Below, piece by piece: positions 41,085-47,468 of a stretch of 64,000 nt of DNA. The notes below the pieces were generated by a model. It did no database searches. It saw nothing but the letters and a program-made list of their open reading frames with translations, and was not told the origin of the DNA. Origin of the DNA: Sphingobium sp. V4 (lineage in GTDB: Bacteria > Pseudomonadota > Alphaproteobacteria > Sphingomonadales > Sphingomonadaceae); assembly GCF_029590555.1 (NCBI RefSeq), contig NZ_CP081001.1, forward strand, positions 62,001 to 126,000, in the 5' to 3' direction. Each line of letters starts with the position of its first letter. Positions within the stretch are counted from its first letter, which is position 1. Made by a program: the position numbers and the translations under genes.

Positions 41085-41747
41085 ATGGCCTATGCTGACC
41101 ACTCGCAAGGATCGAGTCGCACGATATCGATCGTCATCGTCGCCCTGATTCACGCTGTTCTCGGCTATGCCTTCGTCACCGGTCTTGGCATGAAATATGT
41201 CAAAAAGGCGGCGGAACAGCTGAACGTGATCGACGTGAAGGAGGAACCGCCGCCACCGGACGAGGAGCCGCCGCCGCCGCCGCCAGACCAGCCGGTCGAA
41301 CCGCCGCCGGTCGTCGCACCTCCGCCGATCGTTCAGACCCCGGCTCCGGCGCCGCCGATCCAGACGGTTCGGACGCCCCCGCCGGTGTTCAATCCGGTCC
41401 CGGTCGCCGCACCGCCGCCGCCGCCGGCCGCACCGCCACCGCCGCCTCAGGCTGCCACGCGGGCTTCGCCGCGCAGCTCGCCAGGCAGCTGGCTCAGCGA
41501 TGCGGACTATCCGAGCCGCGCCCAGCGTGAAGAACGTTCGGGTACCGCAGGTTTCCGTCTGGAAATCGGCGCCGATGGCCGGGTGACCAACTGCACCATC
41601 ACTTCGTCGACCGGCCATGCCGACCTTGACGAAGCGACCTGCCGCCTGCTGCCGCGCCGTGCGCGGTTCAAGCCGGCCAAGGGTTCCGATGGCGCGGAAA
41701 TGCCCGACACCTACAACGGGCGCATCACCTGGCGTCTGCCGGAATAA
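41085..41747 (+). CDS. tonB: energy transducer TonB
   Basis: This 220-residue protein transmits proton-motive force to outer-membrane TonB-dependent receptors. It has an N-terminal membrane anchor (residues 13-35), a long proline-rich periplasmic spacer (about 52-125, with PPPPDEEPPPPPPDQP), and a C-terminal TonB domain (about 135-220) with the conserved YPSRAQREERSGTAGFRLEI strand-helix pattern. AAGGAG lies 12 bases before the ATG. The exbB gene follows after 72 bp, then two exbD genes, so all components are in one operon. Cysteines at the C-terminus may form a disulfide. Confidence 0.93.
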   Translation: MAYADHSQGSSRTISIVIVALIHAVLGYAFVTGLGMKYVKKAAEQLNVIDVKEEPPPPDEEPPPPPPDQPVEPPPVVAPPPIVQTPAPAPPIQTVRTPPPVFNPVPVAAPPPPPAAPPPPPQAATRASPRSSPGSWLSDADYPSRAQREERSGTAGFRLEIGADGRVTNCTITSSTGHADLDEATCRLLPRRARFKPAKGSDGAEMPDTYNGRITWRLPE

Positions 41748-41819
41748 TCGAAATCGGGAGGGTGCGCGCCCGGCGCCGCCCGTCCCAAGCTTGATCTCAT
41801 TGAGAGGGAAGTCTTGAAC

Positions 41820-42575
41820 ATGTTGATGTATCTCGCAGCTGCGGCTCCGAAGCCGGAAAACCCCTATGGTCTGATGGAAGCCCTCGAGCAGGGCGGCACC
41901 ATCGCCTGGACCGTCTTCATCATCCTGTGCGGCATGTCGGTCGGCACTTTCTACATTCTGTTCACCAAGCTGATCGAACAGCAGAAGGTGATCAACCAGG
42001 GCAAGAAGGTCCGCGCGACCTTCTGGCGTTCGGCCTCGCTCAAGGAAGCCTCGGCCAAGCTGGAAAAGAACTCGGCCTACAAGCAGATCGTCGACGACGG
42101 CATCAAGGCTCAGGAAGAGCATGGCAAGCTGAAGGATCCGGTCGAAGCGCATGACTGGCTGCACGGCTCGCTGGCTCGCTCGGAAGCCGCGATCAACTCG
42201 TCGCTGGGCGGTGGCCTGGCCTTCCTCGCGACCGTCGGTTCGACCTCGCCGTTCATCGGTCTGTTCGGTACCGTTATCGGCATCTACCGCGCCCTCATCA
42301 AGATCGGCGCCGCTGGTCAGGCCTCGATCGACGCCGTTGCCGGCCCGGTCGGTGAAGCTCTGATCATGACCGCCCTGGGTCTGGCCGTGGCCGTTCCCGC
42401 GGTGCTCGCCTACAACTTCCTGCAGCGCCGCAACAAGTCGATCGCCGAACAGCTGAACGGCTTCACCGTCGACCTGCTGGCCTATCTGGTTTCGGACGGC
42501 GCCGTGAAGCCGGCCGTCACTGCCGCTCCGGCTGCTCCGGCCGCCAAGCCGGCCGCCGCACCGACCAAGGCCTGA
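41820..42575 (+). CDS. exbB: MotA/TolQ/ExbB proton channel family protein
   Basis: This 251-residue inner-membrane protein is ExbB, which with ExbD uses the proton gradient to energise TonB. Three transmembrane helices are visible, at about residues 25-47, 133-155 and 170-195. The family stretch is LAFLATVGSTSPFIGLFGTVIGIYRALIKIG. The C-terminus is alanine/proline-rich (AAPAAPAAKPAAAPT). ATG 41820 follows GAGGGAAG; an upstream TTG at 41814 is less likely. Its place between tonB and exbD supports the assignment over TolQ. Confidence 0.93.
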   Translation: MLMYLAAAAPKPENPYGLMEALEQGGTIAWTVFIILCGMSVGTFYILFTKLIEQQKVINQGKKVRATFWRSASLKEASAKLEKNSAYKQIVDDGIKAQEEHGKLKDPVEAHDWLHGSLARSEAAINSSLGGGLAFLATVGSTSPFIGLFGTVIGIYRALIKIGAAGQASIDAVAGPVGEALIMTALGLAVAVPAVLAYNFLQRRNKSIAEQLNGFTVDLLAYLVSDGAVKPAVTAAPAAPAAKPAAAPTKA

Positions 42576-42702
42576 TCGGTCTCAAGACGCCGGCGCAGGG
42601 AATCGGGTGGCGGCTGCGACCGCCCGGTTCCCCCGCCGACCATGGCCCTCGCGATGCCCGCATTGACGGGGCGCCATCGACACCAAGGTTAGGATAGTAT
42701 CA

Positions 42703-43191
42703 ATGGCAATGAGTGTTGGCTCCGACGGCGGTGACGACAAGCCGATGTCCGACATCAACACGACGCCGCTCGTCGACGTCATGCTGGTGTTGCTCATCAT
42801 CTTTCTCATCGCGGTCCCGGTCGTCGTCCAGACGGTCGATCTGCAGCTTCCCAAGGTGGCGTTCGAGCCGACCACGACGAAGCCGGAAAATGTGTCCCTC
42901 TCGGTCACCACGGCTGCGGATGGCAGCTGCGCGGTTTTCTGGGGCATGGCTCCGGTCAATTCGAACGAGCTGCTCGACCGTGCGGTCGCGAAGCTCGAAG
43001 CGGACATCAAGAAGGCTGGCGGCGTTGAAAACATGACGCCGGAGGATCTGCCTGAAGTGCATATCCGCGGCGACATCAATACCCCCTATCGGTGCATCGG
43101 CGGCACCATCTACACGATGCAGCGCGCCGGTTTCCCGAAGGTGGGCTTCATCTCCGAACCGGAACCCGGTTCGGGCACCACCCGCCTCTGA
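42703..43191 (+). CDS. exbD: biopolymer transporter ExbD (first copy)
   Basis: This 162-residue protein has one N-terminal transmembrane helix with the essential membrane aspartate at residue 25 (NTTPLVDVMLVLLIIF), preceded by MSDINTTP, and a periplasmic domain. It forms the proton-driven ExbB-ExbD motor for TonB. The periplasmic part carries two cysteines (GSCAVFW and YRCIGG), absent from the second copy. A 127-bp gap separates it from exbB. Paired ExbD genes are common in sphingomonads, which have many TonB-dependent receptors. Confidence 0.92.
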   Translation: MAMSVGSDGGDDKPMSDINTTPLVDVMLVLLIIFLIAVPVVVQTVDLQLPKVAFEPTTTKPENVSLSVTTAADGSCAVFWGMAPVNSNELLDRAVAKLEADIKKAGGVENMTPEDLPEVHIRGDINTPYRCIGGTIYTMQRAGFPKVGFISEPEPGSGTTRL

Positions 43192-43215
43192 TCGGCCGAA
43201 GAAGGAGAATTCGCC

Positions 43216-43638
43216 ATGGCAATGAGTGCCGGCTCCGAAGATGGCGAGCCGATGGTGGAAATGAACACGACGCCGCTCATCGACGTCATGCTCGTTCTGC
43301 TCATCATGTTCATCATCACCATCCCGATCCAGACCCATGCGGTGAAGATCGACCTGCCGCAGAACGCGCCGCCTACGGACAGCGTGATCGACCCGGTCAA
43401 GAACAAGGTCGCGATCGACGCCGGTGGCGTCATCACCTGGAACGGATCGCCGATCGACCTGCTGACCCTGCGTCAGTATCTGCAGCAGTCGCTGCGCCTG
43501 CCGGTTGAGCCGGAACTCCAGTTCCAGCCGGCCGCAGCAACCCGTTACGTCGTCGTCGACGAGGTGCTGGCGGAGATCAAGCGTGCGGGCGTGACCAAGC
43601 TGGGTTTCGTCGGCAACGAACAATATGGCAGCTTCTAA
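43216..43638 (+). CDS. exbD: biopolymer transporter ExbD (second copy)
   Basis: This 140-residue ExbD-family protein has the membrane helix MNTTPLIDVMLVLLIMF with the essential Asp at residue 23, then a periplasmic domain ending RYVVVDEVLAEIKRAGVTKLGFVG. It follows the first exbD by 24 bases, with GAAGGAGAA before its ATG. The two copies share N-terminal sequence but diverge in the periplasmic part, so they probably form a heteromeric or alternative motor. A UUCG-loop terminator follows. Confidence 0.92.
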   Translation: MAMSAGSEDGEPMVEMNTTPLIDVMLVLLIMFIITIPIQTHAVKIDLPQNAPPTDSVIDPVKNKVAIDAGGVITWNGSPIDLLTLRQYLQQSLRLPVEPELQFQPAAATRYVVVDEVLAEIKRAGVTKLGFVGNEQYGSF

Positions 43639-44184: not shown

Positions 44185-45972
44185 TCAGGCGACCGGTCCG
44201 TCCTGAAATTGCAGGCTCGCGAGGCGTGCATAGAGGCCGCCTTCACCGACCAAGGCTGCATGGTCGCCCTGCTCCACGATCCGGCCATGATCGAGAACGA
44301 TGATGCGATCGGCCGCGCGCACAGTCGCGAGCCGATGGGCGATGACGATCGTCGTGCGCCCCTGCATCAGGCGCGCGAGCGCATCCTGCACCAGCCGCTC
44401 GGATTCGGCATCCAGCGCGGAGGTCGCTTCGTCGAGCAGAAGGATAGGGGCATCGCGGAGCAGAGCGCGGGCGATCGAGATACGCTGGCGCTGCCCCCCC
44501 GACAGGCGCGCGCCGCCCTCGCCCAGAAATGTGTCCAGCCCCTGCGGCAGGGCGCGCAGGAAGCTTTCGGCATTGGCGGCGCGGGCAGCGTCCCATATTT
44601 CGGCGTCGCCGGCATCCCAGCGGCCATAGCGCAGATTGTCGCGCGCGGACGCGGCGAAGATGACGCTGTCCTGCGGCACCATCGCCATCATGGCGCGGAC
44701 CATGGCCGGATCGGCGTCAGGCAGCGGCACGCCGTTCAAGCGGATCGCTCCGCCGTCGGGATCGTAGAAACGCAGCGCAAGCTGGATCAGCGTGGACTTG
44801 CCGGCCCCTGACGGGCCGACCACCGCGACGGTTTCCCCCGGTGCGATGTCGAGCGTGACGCCATTCAGCGCGGCCTGGTCCGGGCGGGTGGGATAATGGA
44901 AATGCACATCCTCGAAACTGATTCGTCCACCTTGGGCAATGACGGGCACGGACGTCGGCGCGGGCGGGGGCAGGATGTCCGGTTTGGCCCGCATCAGCTC
45001 GTCAAGCCGGCTCGCCGCGCCGGCGCCGCGCAGCAGGTCGCCCCAGCTTTCGGACAGTGAGCCGAAGGCGCCCGCCACCAGCCCTCCGGTCAGCACGAAG
45101 GCGGCGATGCTGCCGCCCGACAGGCGGCCCGCCGCGACGTCGATCGCACCCAGCCACATGACGCCGGTAATCGACCCGAACACCAGCGCGAAGGCGATCG
45201 CTGTCATGGCGGCGCGCAACAGGATGCGACGCCGCGCGGTGACAAAGCCATGCTCGACCGTCGCGTCGAAGCGGGCGGCCTCCCGCGCCTCCTGTCCAAA
45301 CGCCTGGACGATCCGCATCGCGCCCAGCACTTCGGTGGTCAGGCTGCCGATATCGGCGAGCCGGTCCTGGCTGGCACGCGACAACAGGCGCACCCGCCGG
45401 CCCAGGCTGACGAGGACGAGCAGGATGACCGGGATGCCGAGCAGCAGCAGCCCCGCCAGCTTGGGCGCCAGGGCAAACAGATAGGCAAGGCCGCCAATGC
45501 CCGTCACCATGTTCCGCAGCGCGACCGACACCGTCGAGCCAACGACCTGCTCGACGATGGCGGTGTCTGCGGTCATGCGCGACGCGATTTCGGAGGGGCG
45601 GTTTTCCTCGAAGAATCGGGGCGCCTGACGCAACAGATTCGCCTGGGTGGCGCTGCGGATGTCGGCGACGACGCGCTCGCCCAGCCAGGAGACGAAGTAG
45701 AAGCGCAGCGCGCTCGCCAGCGCGAGCACGACCACGATCAGCAGCAGATATTCGAACCAGCGGCTGATGTCGCCGCCGCCCATGAAGCCTTTGTCGATGA
45801 CCAGCCTGAACCCGTTGGGGATGGCGAGGGTCGCGGCGGACGAGACGATCAGCGCTGCCAAGGCGCCCGCGATCCGCCCGGGATAGCGCCGGACGAAGCG
45901 CCAGAGCATCGCCAGGCTGCCGAGAGCGGGGCGTTTGGGCGCGGGCGGCGAAATGGGTGCGGCATCCTCCAT
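44185..45972 (-). CDS. ABC transporter, fused membrane and ATPase (MsbA-like exporter)
   Basis: This 595-residue half-transporter has six transmembrane helices in the first 320 residues and a C-terminal ATPase. Walker A is VGPSGAGKST near residue 385, the signature is LSGGQRQRISIARALL near 487, and Walker B is LLLDEATSALDAE near 510. The H-loop is IAHRLAT. It works as a homodimer that exports a hydrophobic substrate from the inner membrane. MsbA/lipid A is the nearest well-known member, but similar proteins move drugs or peptides, so the substrate is open. Nested palindromes lie just upstream of its start. Confidence 0.9.
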   Translation of the reverse strand: MEDAAPISPPAPKRPALGSLAMLWRFVRRYPGRIAGALAALIVSSAATLAIPNGFRLVIDKGFMGGGDISRWFEYLLLIVVVLALASALRFYFVSWLGERVVADIRSATQANLLRQAPRFFEENRPSEIASRMTADTAIVEQVVGSTVSVALRNMVTGIGGLAYLFALAPKLAGLLLLGIPVILLVLVSLGRRVRLLSRASQDRLADIGSLTTEVLGAMRIVQAFGQEAREAARFDATVEHGFVTARRRILLRAAMTAIAFALVFGSITGVMWLGAIDVAAGRLSGGSIAAFVLTGGLVAGAFGSLSESWGDLLRGAGAASRLDELMRAKPDILPPPAPTSVPVIAQGGRISFEDVHFHYPTRPDQAALNGVTLDIAPGETVAVVGPSGAGKSTLIQLALRFYDPDGGAIRLNGVPLPDADPAMVRAMMAMVPQDSVIFAASARDNLRYGRWDAGDAEIWDAARAANAESFLRALPQGLDTFLGEGGARLSGGQRQRISIARALLRDAPILLLDEATSALDAESERLVQDALARLMQGRTTIVIAHRLATVRAADRIIVLDHGRIVEQGDHAALVGEGGLYARLASLQFQDGPVA

Positions 45973-46175: not shown

Positions 46176-47468
46176 TCAGCTCGCAGGCGCTATGGTTGCC
46201 GCCAGTTCCATGATGCGGCGAGGGGTGGCCTGTCCGGTGAGGGCATAGGCCATGTCGCCCGCCTCCCAATAGGCGATGACGTCCCCGGCGCGCTCCGCCA
46301 GCATCGGCTTGGCGTCCGCAGGGGTTTCCGCACGGTCGGCGAAGAAGGAGAGATGCTCGCCGCGCGGGCTTTCCAGCGACATGGCGATCGCCGGGCTGTC
46401 GGCGGTGGGGAAGAGCTGGACATCGGCGACGCGCCAGCCGACCGGAAGGGCGGGCAGGATAATGCCGGTCGATCGCTCGATCTCCTGAGGGTTCAATGTT
46501 GCGCTCTCCACTTGGGACGCCATCGCCTGGCGCAGCAGGGCGGCGCGGCGGGAAGCTGCCGCCTCGTCGAGGAAGCTGCTGGCCTGCGCCGGCTGGGGAA
46601 ATTCGCCCAGTGCTCCGCGTGCGATCCAGCCCGTCGCGATCAGCGCTGCGATGCCGGCGGCGCGGCCAAGGTGGCGCCAGGTGCGGCCGGCGTCGTTGTC
46701 GTTCGCGACCGGCAAGGTGACGTCGCGACGGCGGCCGACCAACGTGCCCTTGGTGCCGTCCTTCATCAGGCGGAAGTCGATATGCGGCCAGCGCTGCCGC
46801 CAGCGTCGGGCCACCAGCCGCTCGCCAGGGCGGGCGGCATCGTCCAGCAGCACCACGCCATCGGGGGACAGGCGCGCGAACAGGCTGTCGGCGGCGCCGC
46901 GCACCAGCGGATGCACGCTCCAGGGCGGGCCGTCGATGATGAGCAGGTCAATCTGGTCTGGCAGGTTGTCGATCGCATACCAGCGGCCCGGCCAGTCCGC
47001 GCTTTCGCGGGTCAGCGGCGCGTGGCGAATGTCCACGCCCAGGCCGTTGTCGGCCAGCCACTGGCGGGTGGCATCGACGAAACCGCCATGCTGGTCGAAA
47101 CTGTGCAGCCGTCCGCCGCCATGCAGTTGCAGGGCGCGCGCCGCGACCAGGGAGGAGGCGCCGGCACCCAGTTCCACGACATGAGCAGGGCGGAGCCGGG
47201 TGATTTCGCGCACGATGTGGCGCAGGAAGCCGACGTCCGCCTTCCAGCTGCCCAGATGCGGCAGGGCGTCATGGGCGAGGCCCAGCTCGTCCAGCAGCGC
47301 GCGCTTGTCCGCCTTGCGCCCGCCCGACAGGCTGGCCAGCAGCCAGGGCCAGCCGATCGCGCCGAAGCCGATGCGCCAGGCCATGTCGGACAGGCGGCGC
47401 GGCAGGTCGTCCTCGCCGGGTTGCGTCTCGCTCAGGGGAAGAAAGCCGGTCAGTTCGCGGGATGTCAC
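46176..47468 (-). CDS. SAM-dependent methyltransferase fused to anti-sigma-like C-terminal domain
   Basis: This 430-residue protein joins two unrelated parts. Residues about 55-245 form a class I methyltransferase (Methyltransf_24-like), with AdoMet motif I VVELGAGASSLVAARAL near 97, an acidic residue in LHSFDQHGG (125) and DLLIIDGPPW at 174-183. After the linker VANDND (255-260), one transmembrane helix spans about 266-288. The C-terminal 140 residues resemble the extracytoplasmic domain of RskA-type anti-sigma factors: EAAASRRAALLRQAMASQ, LPVGWRVADVQLF, and the closing GDMAYALTGQATPRRI. No zinc anti-sigma domain is present; the methyltransferase occupies its place. No sigma factor gene adjoins. 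The family assignment of the C-terminus is from pattern recognition. Confidence 0.75.
   Translation of the reverse strand: MTSRELTGFLPLSETQPGEDDLPRRLSDMAWRIGFGAIGWPWLLASLSGGRKADKRALLDELGLAHDALPHLGSWKADVGFLRHIVREITRLRPAHVVELGAGASSLVAARALQLHGGGRLHSFDQHGGFVDATRQWLADNGLGVDIRHAPLTRESADWPGRWYAIDNLPDQIDLLIIDGPPWSVHPLVRGAADSLFARLSPDGVVLLDDAARPGERLVARRWRQRWPHIDFRLMKDGTKGTLVGRRRDVTLPVANDNDAGRTWRHLGRAAGIAALIATGWIARGALGEFPQPAQASSFLDEAAASRRAALLRQAMASQVESATLNPQEIERSTGIILPALPVGWRVADVQLFPTADSPAIAMSLESPRGEHLSFFADRAETPADAKPMLAERAGDVIAYWEAGDMAYALTGQATPRRIMELAATIAPAS

Follow-up and report, generated by a model that had tools for sequence, protein, structure and literature searches.

A Sphingobium methyltransferase joined to a membrane and predicted periplasmic module related to ECF anti-sigma factors

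A 64,000-nucleotide stretch of the Sphingobium sp. V4 genome (NZ_CP081001.1, positions 62,001 to 126,000; the whole stretch is called the window below) holds a gene at 46176..47468 in which a methyltransferase is followed by a membrane helix and by a C-terminal region that a first-pass annotation had compared with anti-sigma factors. The question raised by this locus is what an enzyme does in the place where an anti-sigma factor carries its sigma-binding domain. The frame was described at the outset as single and uninterrupted, and it is so; it lies on the minus strand (none had been stated) and, from a GTG start, specifies a protein of 430 residues. Its features are as follows, dN/dS being the ratio of non-synonymous to synonymous substitution rates.

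46176..47468, minus strand: whole fusion gene, 430 residues, GTG start at 47468, stop codon 46176-46178
47334..47468, minus strand: residues 1-45, conserved MTSR start, low-confidence N-terminus, helix 22-46; median dN/dS 0.33
46719..47333, minus strand: residues 46-250, class I S-adenosylmethionine (AdoMet) methyltransferase of the Methyltransf_24 type
46683..46718, minus strand: residues 251-262, variable linker with an ANDN-like motif
46611..46691, minus strand: residues 260-286, membrane helix, with R/H residues just before it
46581..46589, minus strand: residues 294-296, juxtamembrane A-x-A motif
46179..46574, minus strand: residues 299-430, predicted periplasmic module, homologue of anti-sigma C-terminal regions

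Homologues of the fusion protein numbered 1,371, and the best 120 listed comprised the protein itself and 119 others, which were 66-87% identical with 80-100% of the length matched and, where an organism was named, came mostly from Sphingobium. The MTSR start was conserved among relatives. When the codons of the window gene were compared with those of 21 relatives within the genus, median dN/dS rose from 0.10 in the enzyme through 0.13 in the helix to 0.22 in the periplasmic part; over all pairs, the median pN/pS values of these three parts were 0.19, 0.30 and 0.38. The fusion is real and is maintained by selection, both halves being under purifying selection, and it recurs in many related genomes. 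The N-terminal helix 22-46 contains a conserved hydrophobic stretch of the FGAIGWPWLL type, and residues 1-45 are possibly membrane-associated.

The enzyme half was matched by Pfam PF13578 (Methyltransf_24) over residues 98-210 (41.5 bits against a cut-off of 26.3) and has a Rossmann fold with AdoMet motif I; the motifs ELGAGAS and DLLIIDGPPW, by which it had been recognised, are residues 99-105 and 174-183. In a PDB fold search with the whole protein, which is informative for the enzyme half only (the module was searched separately), the fold resembled cation-dependent O-methyltransferases, COMT and TrmR. With sequence family and fold in common with Methyltransf_24/YrrM-like O-methyltransferases, TrmR and COMT, the enzyme is, on these comparisons, O-methyltransferase-like. 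Known enzymes of these kinds are soluble or simply anchored, and we know of no such methyltransferase that carries the C-terminal module described here. The VANDND linker noted previously is present in the protein, and an ANDN-like motif also precedes the module in sulfotransferase fusions.

The C-terminal region (residues ~299-430) was predicted by AlphaFold2 as a folded domain of two helices, six strands and one helix. Used alone, the C-terminal part (134 residues) gave no match in Pfam-A at E<=1 and none in NCBIfam at E<=10, and four matches of a PDB sequence search (E 0.092-0.34) were rejected, all being unrelated proteins. A Foldseek search with the module returned RseB or MucB (C-terminal domain) in all ten best rows; these proteins, which act in the periplasm in the sigma-E and AlgU stress pathways, thus rank nearest among solved structures, as a possible resemblance in fold. 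The MucB_RseB_C profile (PF17188) had no match in the Sphingobium sp. V4 genome at E<=10, and profile-profile comparison of the module gave no support for a relation to the single E. coli RseB sequence (probability 0.7%) or to E. coli RseA (0.8%).

The relation to anti-sigma factors emerged from homologues in other genomes. In a first search of the family, 23 of 149 genomes were matched and the 19 places found at E 1.6e-19 or better were studied. At 11 of these the module formed the C-terminal half of frames of 258-357 residues with an N-terminus resembling anti-sigma domains, and an ECF (extracytoplasmic function) sigma gene was directly upstream in all 11; no ECF sigma gene was found beside the eight enzyme fusions of the same set, where the upstream DNA extended for only 0 to ~0.7 kb, which makes the wider count given further on the more reliable test. 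Among plasmid records the domain was present in 160 (127 of them Rhizobium), with an anti-sigma annotation in 16 of the 20 best rows and in 39 of 60 rows sampled across the ranking, and in R. leguminosarum and R. etli the module gene overlaps the end of a sigma-70-family gene. The anti-sigma factors beside ECF sigma genes in these species (BMW22_RS33915 and RHE_RS24040, respectively) have a transmembrane segment and a periplasmic domain homologous to the module. The C-terminal half thus shares ancestry, judging by these ECF-linked homologues, with the region of ECF anti-sigma factors that comprises their membrane segment and periplasmic domain. The anti-sigma lineage proposed for it therefore stands, on homology to ECF-linked proteins, and the RskA type does not, as the negative Pfam search indicates. 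On plasmid p42e of R. etli CFN 42 (L222:2164-3457) the anti-sigma type lies between the ECF sigma gene and a Bax inhibitor-1/YccA gene, an arrangement seen on Rhizobium plasmids with a heavy-metal P-type ATPase gene and cueR close by.

The zf-HC2 cut-off of 22.2 bits was passed by two of seven anti-sigma-type proteins scanned (L012, 23.0; L017, 33.3), with L010 (21.6), L013, L018, L152 and L168 below it, and the full zinc motif (taken as H-x3-C-x2-C) was in none of the 11 anti-sigma-type rows examined; for this lineage, it is probably wrong to describe the replaced cytoplasmic domain as zinc-binding. The window protein has the helix and periplasmic domain of the lineage and no match to a zf-HC2-like sigma-binding domain; as had been proposed, an enzyme, matched by PF13578, occupies that place. 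The nearby ECF sigma factor that an anti-sigma role would lead one to look for was not found within the 64 kb window. Set against the Alphaproteobacteria anti-sigma factors named above, the fusion has an enzyme for the sigma-binding domain and no adjoining ECF sigma gene in the flanks examined, and because sigma-binding domain and sigma neighbour are both absent, it is not an anti-sigma factor by membership.

Wider genome searches were made with a profile of the 19 module rows. Of 61 genomes from the genus, 44 contained the module; the corresponding figures were at least 52 of 397 at family level, 20 of 346 at order level and 53 of 337 at class level, all counts being lower bounds from overlapping samples with different E-value limits and with 9-10 candidates scored per genome for family, order and class. 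A total of 151 frames (140 from fetched loci and 11 from the first search, the window's own locus being excluded) were classified by their N-terminal part. They comprised 81 anti-sigma types (79 assigned via a profile, L147 and L167 by reading), 57 Methyltransf_24, eight FkbM, three glycerophosphotransferase-like and one sulfotransferase fusion, and one orphan (L057), many of these rows being close relatives and hence not independent. An ECF sigma gene was beside 79 of the 81 anti-sigma types (exceptions L067 and L127) and beside none of the 69 enzyme fusions, for which flanks were mostly ~4-5 kb on each side and some shorter (1 base upstream of the frame at L086, 986 at L035). At the orphan locus (L057:4541-5522) the module has no recognisable N-terminal domain and overlaps, on the opposite strand, a frame that reads by eye as two-domain cold-shock-like; it may be a free-standing module.

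The sulfotransferase fusion was typed by reading and then matched Pfam Sulfotransfer_1 (79.3 bits). When its module was used as query, the 22 matches were 14 clusters with Sulfotransfer_1 (including Qipengyuania qiaonensis and Aurantiacibacter rhizosphaerae), seven with Methyltransf_24 and one short cluster without a domain. PF04464 matched the glycerophosphotransferase-like protein P0152 (29.7 bits against 22.1), fell below the cut-off for the L007/L035 protein and gave no match for L053 and L054; protein searches around this form gave 10 clusters of 570-591 residues, two with PF04464 and two named 'Glycosyl transferase' (Sphingomonas crocodyli and S. montanisoli). The Sphingobium sp. V4 genome itself has two clear modules, that of the window gene and that of an FkbM fusion (L002:1483-3018, minus strand; G000:C1 ~1,549,931-1,551,466; TIGR01444, 68.7 bits against 37.7), the latter adjoining a gene that reads by eye as delta-aminolevulinate dehydratase. 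A third match is partial (45 residues, E 0.068, G000:C1:1767723-1767857, in a frame of 356 residues). Judged from these assignments, transferases of four or more kinds share a putative sensor module with a family of ECF anti-sigma factors, and its use extends beyond methylation by a single enzyme family, since FkbM, sulfotransferase and glycerophosphotransferase-like enzymes carry it too. An apparent exclusion between FkbM fusions and anti-sigma types in the genus (anti-sigma type in 1 of 7 vs 22 of 37 module-bearing genomes, Fisher p 0.042) was not used, the test being post hoc, with classes typed by hand and one weak match included.

The methyltransferase was found in 58 of 199 family genomes at E<=1e-20, in 59 places, of which nine were fusions, 42 were frames of 242-301 residues and eight were frames of 324-666 residues. 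Further methyltransferase loci, 29 in all, were taken from the best-scoring places outside the Sphingobium sp. V4 genome; eight of their frames had the module and 21 did not; at L182 the frame stops at the end of the methyltransferase domain, and no module is nearby. A quick tree of 42 methyltransferase domains placed 22 fused and two free-standing ones on one side (Shimodaira-Hasegawa-like approximate likelihood ratio test, SH-aLRT, 92) and 18 free-standing ones on the other, which suits one fusion followed by losses. The two free-standing copies within the fused clade are L202 (G094) and L200 (G230), a position that suggests loss of the module. In a tree of the module (85 rows) the methyltransferase, sulfotransferase and glycerophosphotransferase-like rows were grouped (99/94), the sulfotransferase rows joined two methyltransferase rows (100/100) and the FkbM rows stood apart. 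By the approximately unbiased (AU) test, a single clade of all methyltransferase modules was rejected (p 0.0025) and a single clade of all fusions was not (p 0.239), one and several origins both being compatible with the data. On this evidence from the module tree and AU tests, the module has therefore moved between enzyme types at least once.

The gene that follows the fusion gene encodes an ABC exporter on the same strand, 203 bases on (44185-45972), and genes that read by eye as TonB/ExbB/ExbD-like lie further on (41085-43638), in a neighbourhood largely kept in relatives of the genus. Within the genus TonB/ExbB/ExbD-like and ABC-transporter genes recur, an ABC gene being present at 40 of 57 Methyltransf_24 loci; both kinds were absent from three listed loci of other genera (L036, L044 and L048). 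Free-standing methyltransferase copies were seen by eye near housekeeping genes, and as a pointer to the substrate the neighbourhood was discarded. A glycosyltransferase family 4 (GT4) gene was near 28 of 81 anti-sigma-type loci (including some among L104-L123), mostly upstream and on the same strand, and near none of 70 other module loci, the GT4-bearing loci being mostly from one genus. The ECF system of the anti-sigma-type loci may control envelope glycosylation, and the enzyme types and GT4 neighbours together point, circumstantially, to envelope glycans or glycolipids.

In ECF systems, the cytoplasmic domain of the anti-sigma factor binds sigma, and an outside signal frees it. The explanation we tentatively prefer is that the enzyme is tethered to the inner membrane by an ECF anti-sigma sensor module through which an envelope signal changes the enzyme. 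In this protein, as in no fewer than three further enzyme families, a transferase stands in place of the sigma-binding domain. The periplasmic module would still receive the envelope signal, and passage of this signal through the membrane segment would alter where the enzyme is, whether it is released, how stable it is or how active; the decoration of an envelope lipid or glycan could thereby respond without new transcription. The topology, the retained sensing, the envelope substrate and the control, by regulated proteolysis or conformational coupling, are presumed in this scheme. For the membrane sensor proposed initially, the methylated target was to be cytoplasmic; a membrane-located precursor of an envelope lipid or glycan would be no less likely a substrate.

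An appreciable possibility, although a doubtful one, is that the module is an anchor or docking domain that keeps the transferase at the inner membrane or at a periplasmic partner and senses nothing. It would agree with this that a conserved hydrophobic stretch is already present at the N-terminus of the enzyme, that the enzyme is free-standing in many relatives and that the module evolves more rapidly (dN/dS 0.22 vs 0.10 for the enzyme). For anchoring, however, a bare helix would do, yet a folded periplasmic domain is under purifying selection and has been attached to at least four enzyme types.

The membrane segment itself suggests another alternative. The first-pass annotation placed a helix at residues 266-288, and the AlphaFold2 helix spans 260-286, so the segment is confirmed as a short and weakly hydrophobic one (best 19-residue Kyte-Doolittle mean 1.37, at 270-288); the R/H residues before it suggest that this side is cytoplasmic. 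In the A-x-A motif that follows, A294 is invariant and A296 is conserved in >=90% of 52 rows, and the motif could be a signal-peptidase-like site. If so, the gene would be two in one, with helix and motif acting as an internal signal peptide, cleavage freeing a periplasmic RseB-like protein (RseB itself is a free periplasmic protein) and the enzyme keeping a membrane stub. The motif was counted in the 12 residues before the domain, placed by an alignment anchor, and in control windows of 12 residues inside the domain. It preceded the domain in 57/57 Methyltransf_24 (control rate 63%), 7/8 FkbM (51%), 3/3 glycerophosphotransferase-like (47%), 1/1 sulfotransferase (74%) and 41/75 anti-sigma rows (57%). 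The motif is thus steady in the fusions but is weak evidence, because the rows are related, so that their number overstates the case, and the motif is common, occurring in 47-74% of control windows for the four fusion classes; the anti-sigma types are at their own control rate. In the methyltransferase fusions, moreover, the stretch from helix to motif is long and often contains R and E, unlike the usual c-region. Internal cleavage is accordingly judged improbable.

It is still less probable, to the point of being a marginal proposal, that the fusion remains in an ECF circuit, competing for the same periplasmic signal as a canonical anti-sigma factor bearing the same module or pairing with it. 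Many genomes of the genus do have both a fusion and an anti-sigma-type module, but in Sphingobium sp. V4 both clear modules are on enzymes, and the window has no ECF sigma gene. An assembly error or read-through of two neighbouring genes can be dismissed: the halves do occur separately in other genera, as the first-pass annotation had allowed, but the 119 other listed homologues match >=80% of the length, the join is identical across many separate assemblies, selection acts on both halves and no sequencing error explains the join.

Among known systems, the RsgI-type anti-sigma factors of clostridia are likewise modular with swapped domains; in these it is the external sensor that is exchanged while the part binding sigma is retained, and the fusions reverse this, with the sensor kept and the sigma-binding part replaced. 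Membrane histidine kinases, diguanylate cyclases and PASTA kinases share the layout of periplasmic sensor, membrane helix and cytoplasmic enzyme; they make or relay signals, whereas the fusions look like biosynthetic transferases. Three fusions (P0034, P0112 and P0148) are named by JGI with 'anti-sigma factor RsiW', which we take to be the name of COG5662. By this naming, the anti-sigma factors of S. meliloti RpoE1 and RpoE4 probably belong to the same family as the module, being set beside it by description and not by sequence; no S. meliloti was among the best 80 of 269 loci in the genome scan, all of which were Rhizobium or Rhizobiales. In one study, RpoE1 and RpoE4, which belong to ECF26 and are each accompanied by a putative anti-sigma gene, are described as sulfite-activated, and COG5662 domains are reported in the majority of ECF26-linked anti-sigma factors (PMC3511301). 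The R. etli ECF gene PE00004 is reported to be expressed in growth arrest (PMC3188799); from gene order, it appears to be the sigma gene next to RHE_RS24040. Class I anti-sigma groups are noted to have conserved fused domains (PMC7406223). The literature searched, most subscription titles being outside its coverage, yielded no recognisable account of such enzyme fusions.

More generally, it is a fair possibility, held slightly more loosely than the scheme for the window gene, that in sphingomonads the ECF anti-sigma sensor is a general plug-in, moved between enzyme families, that places envelope-tailoring transferases (methyl, sulfo, glycerophosphate-/glycosyl-type) under periplasmic stress and bypasses transcription. 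Proteins labelled only 'class I SAM-dependent methyltransferase' have an overlooked second half. The enzyme types would narrow the substrate to a methyl-, sulfo-, (glycero)phosphate- or sugar-decorated molecule, for example the glycolipids or polysaccharides of sphingomonads. If the proposal is true, the signal of the sensor could be traced through an enzymatic or localisation readout, and ECF envelope stress, so far understood as transcription control, would include a fast, non-transcriptional response of the envelope.
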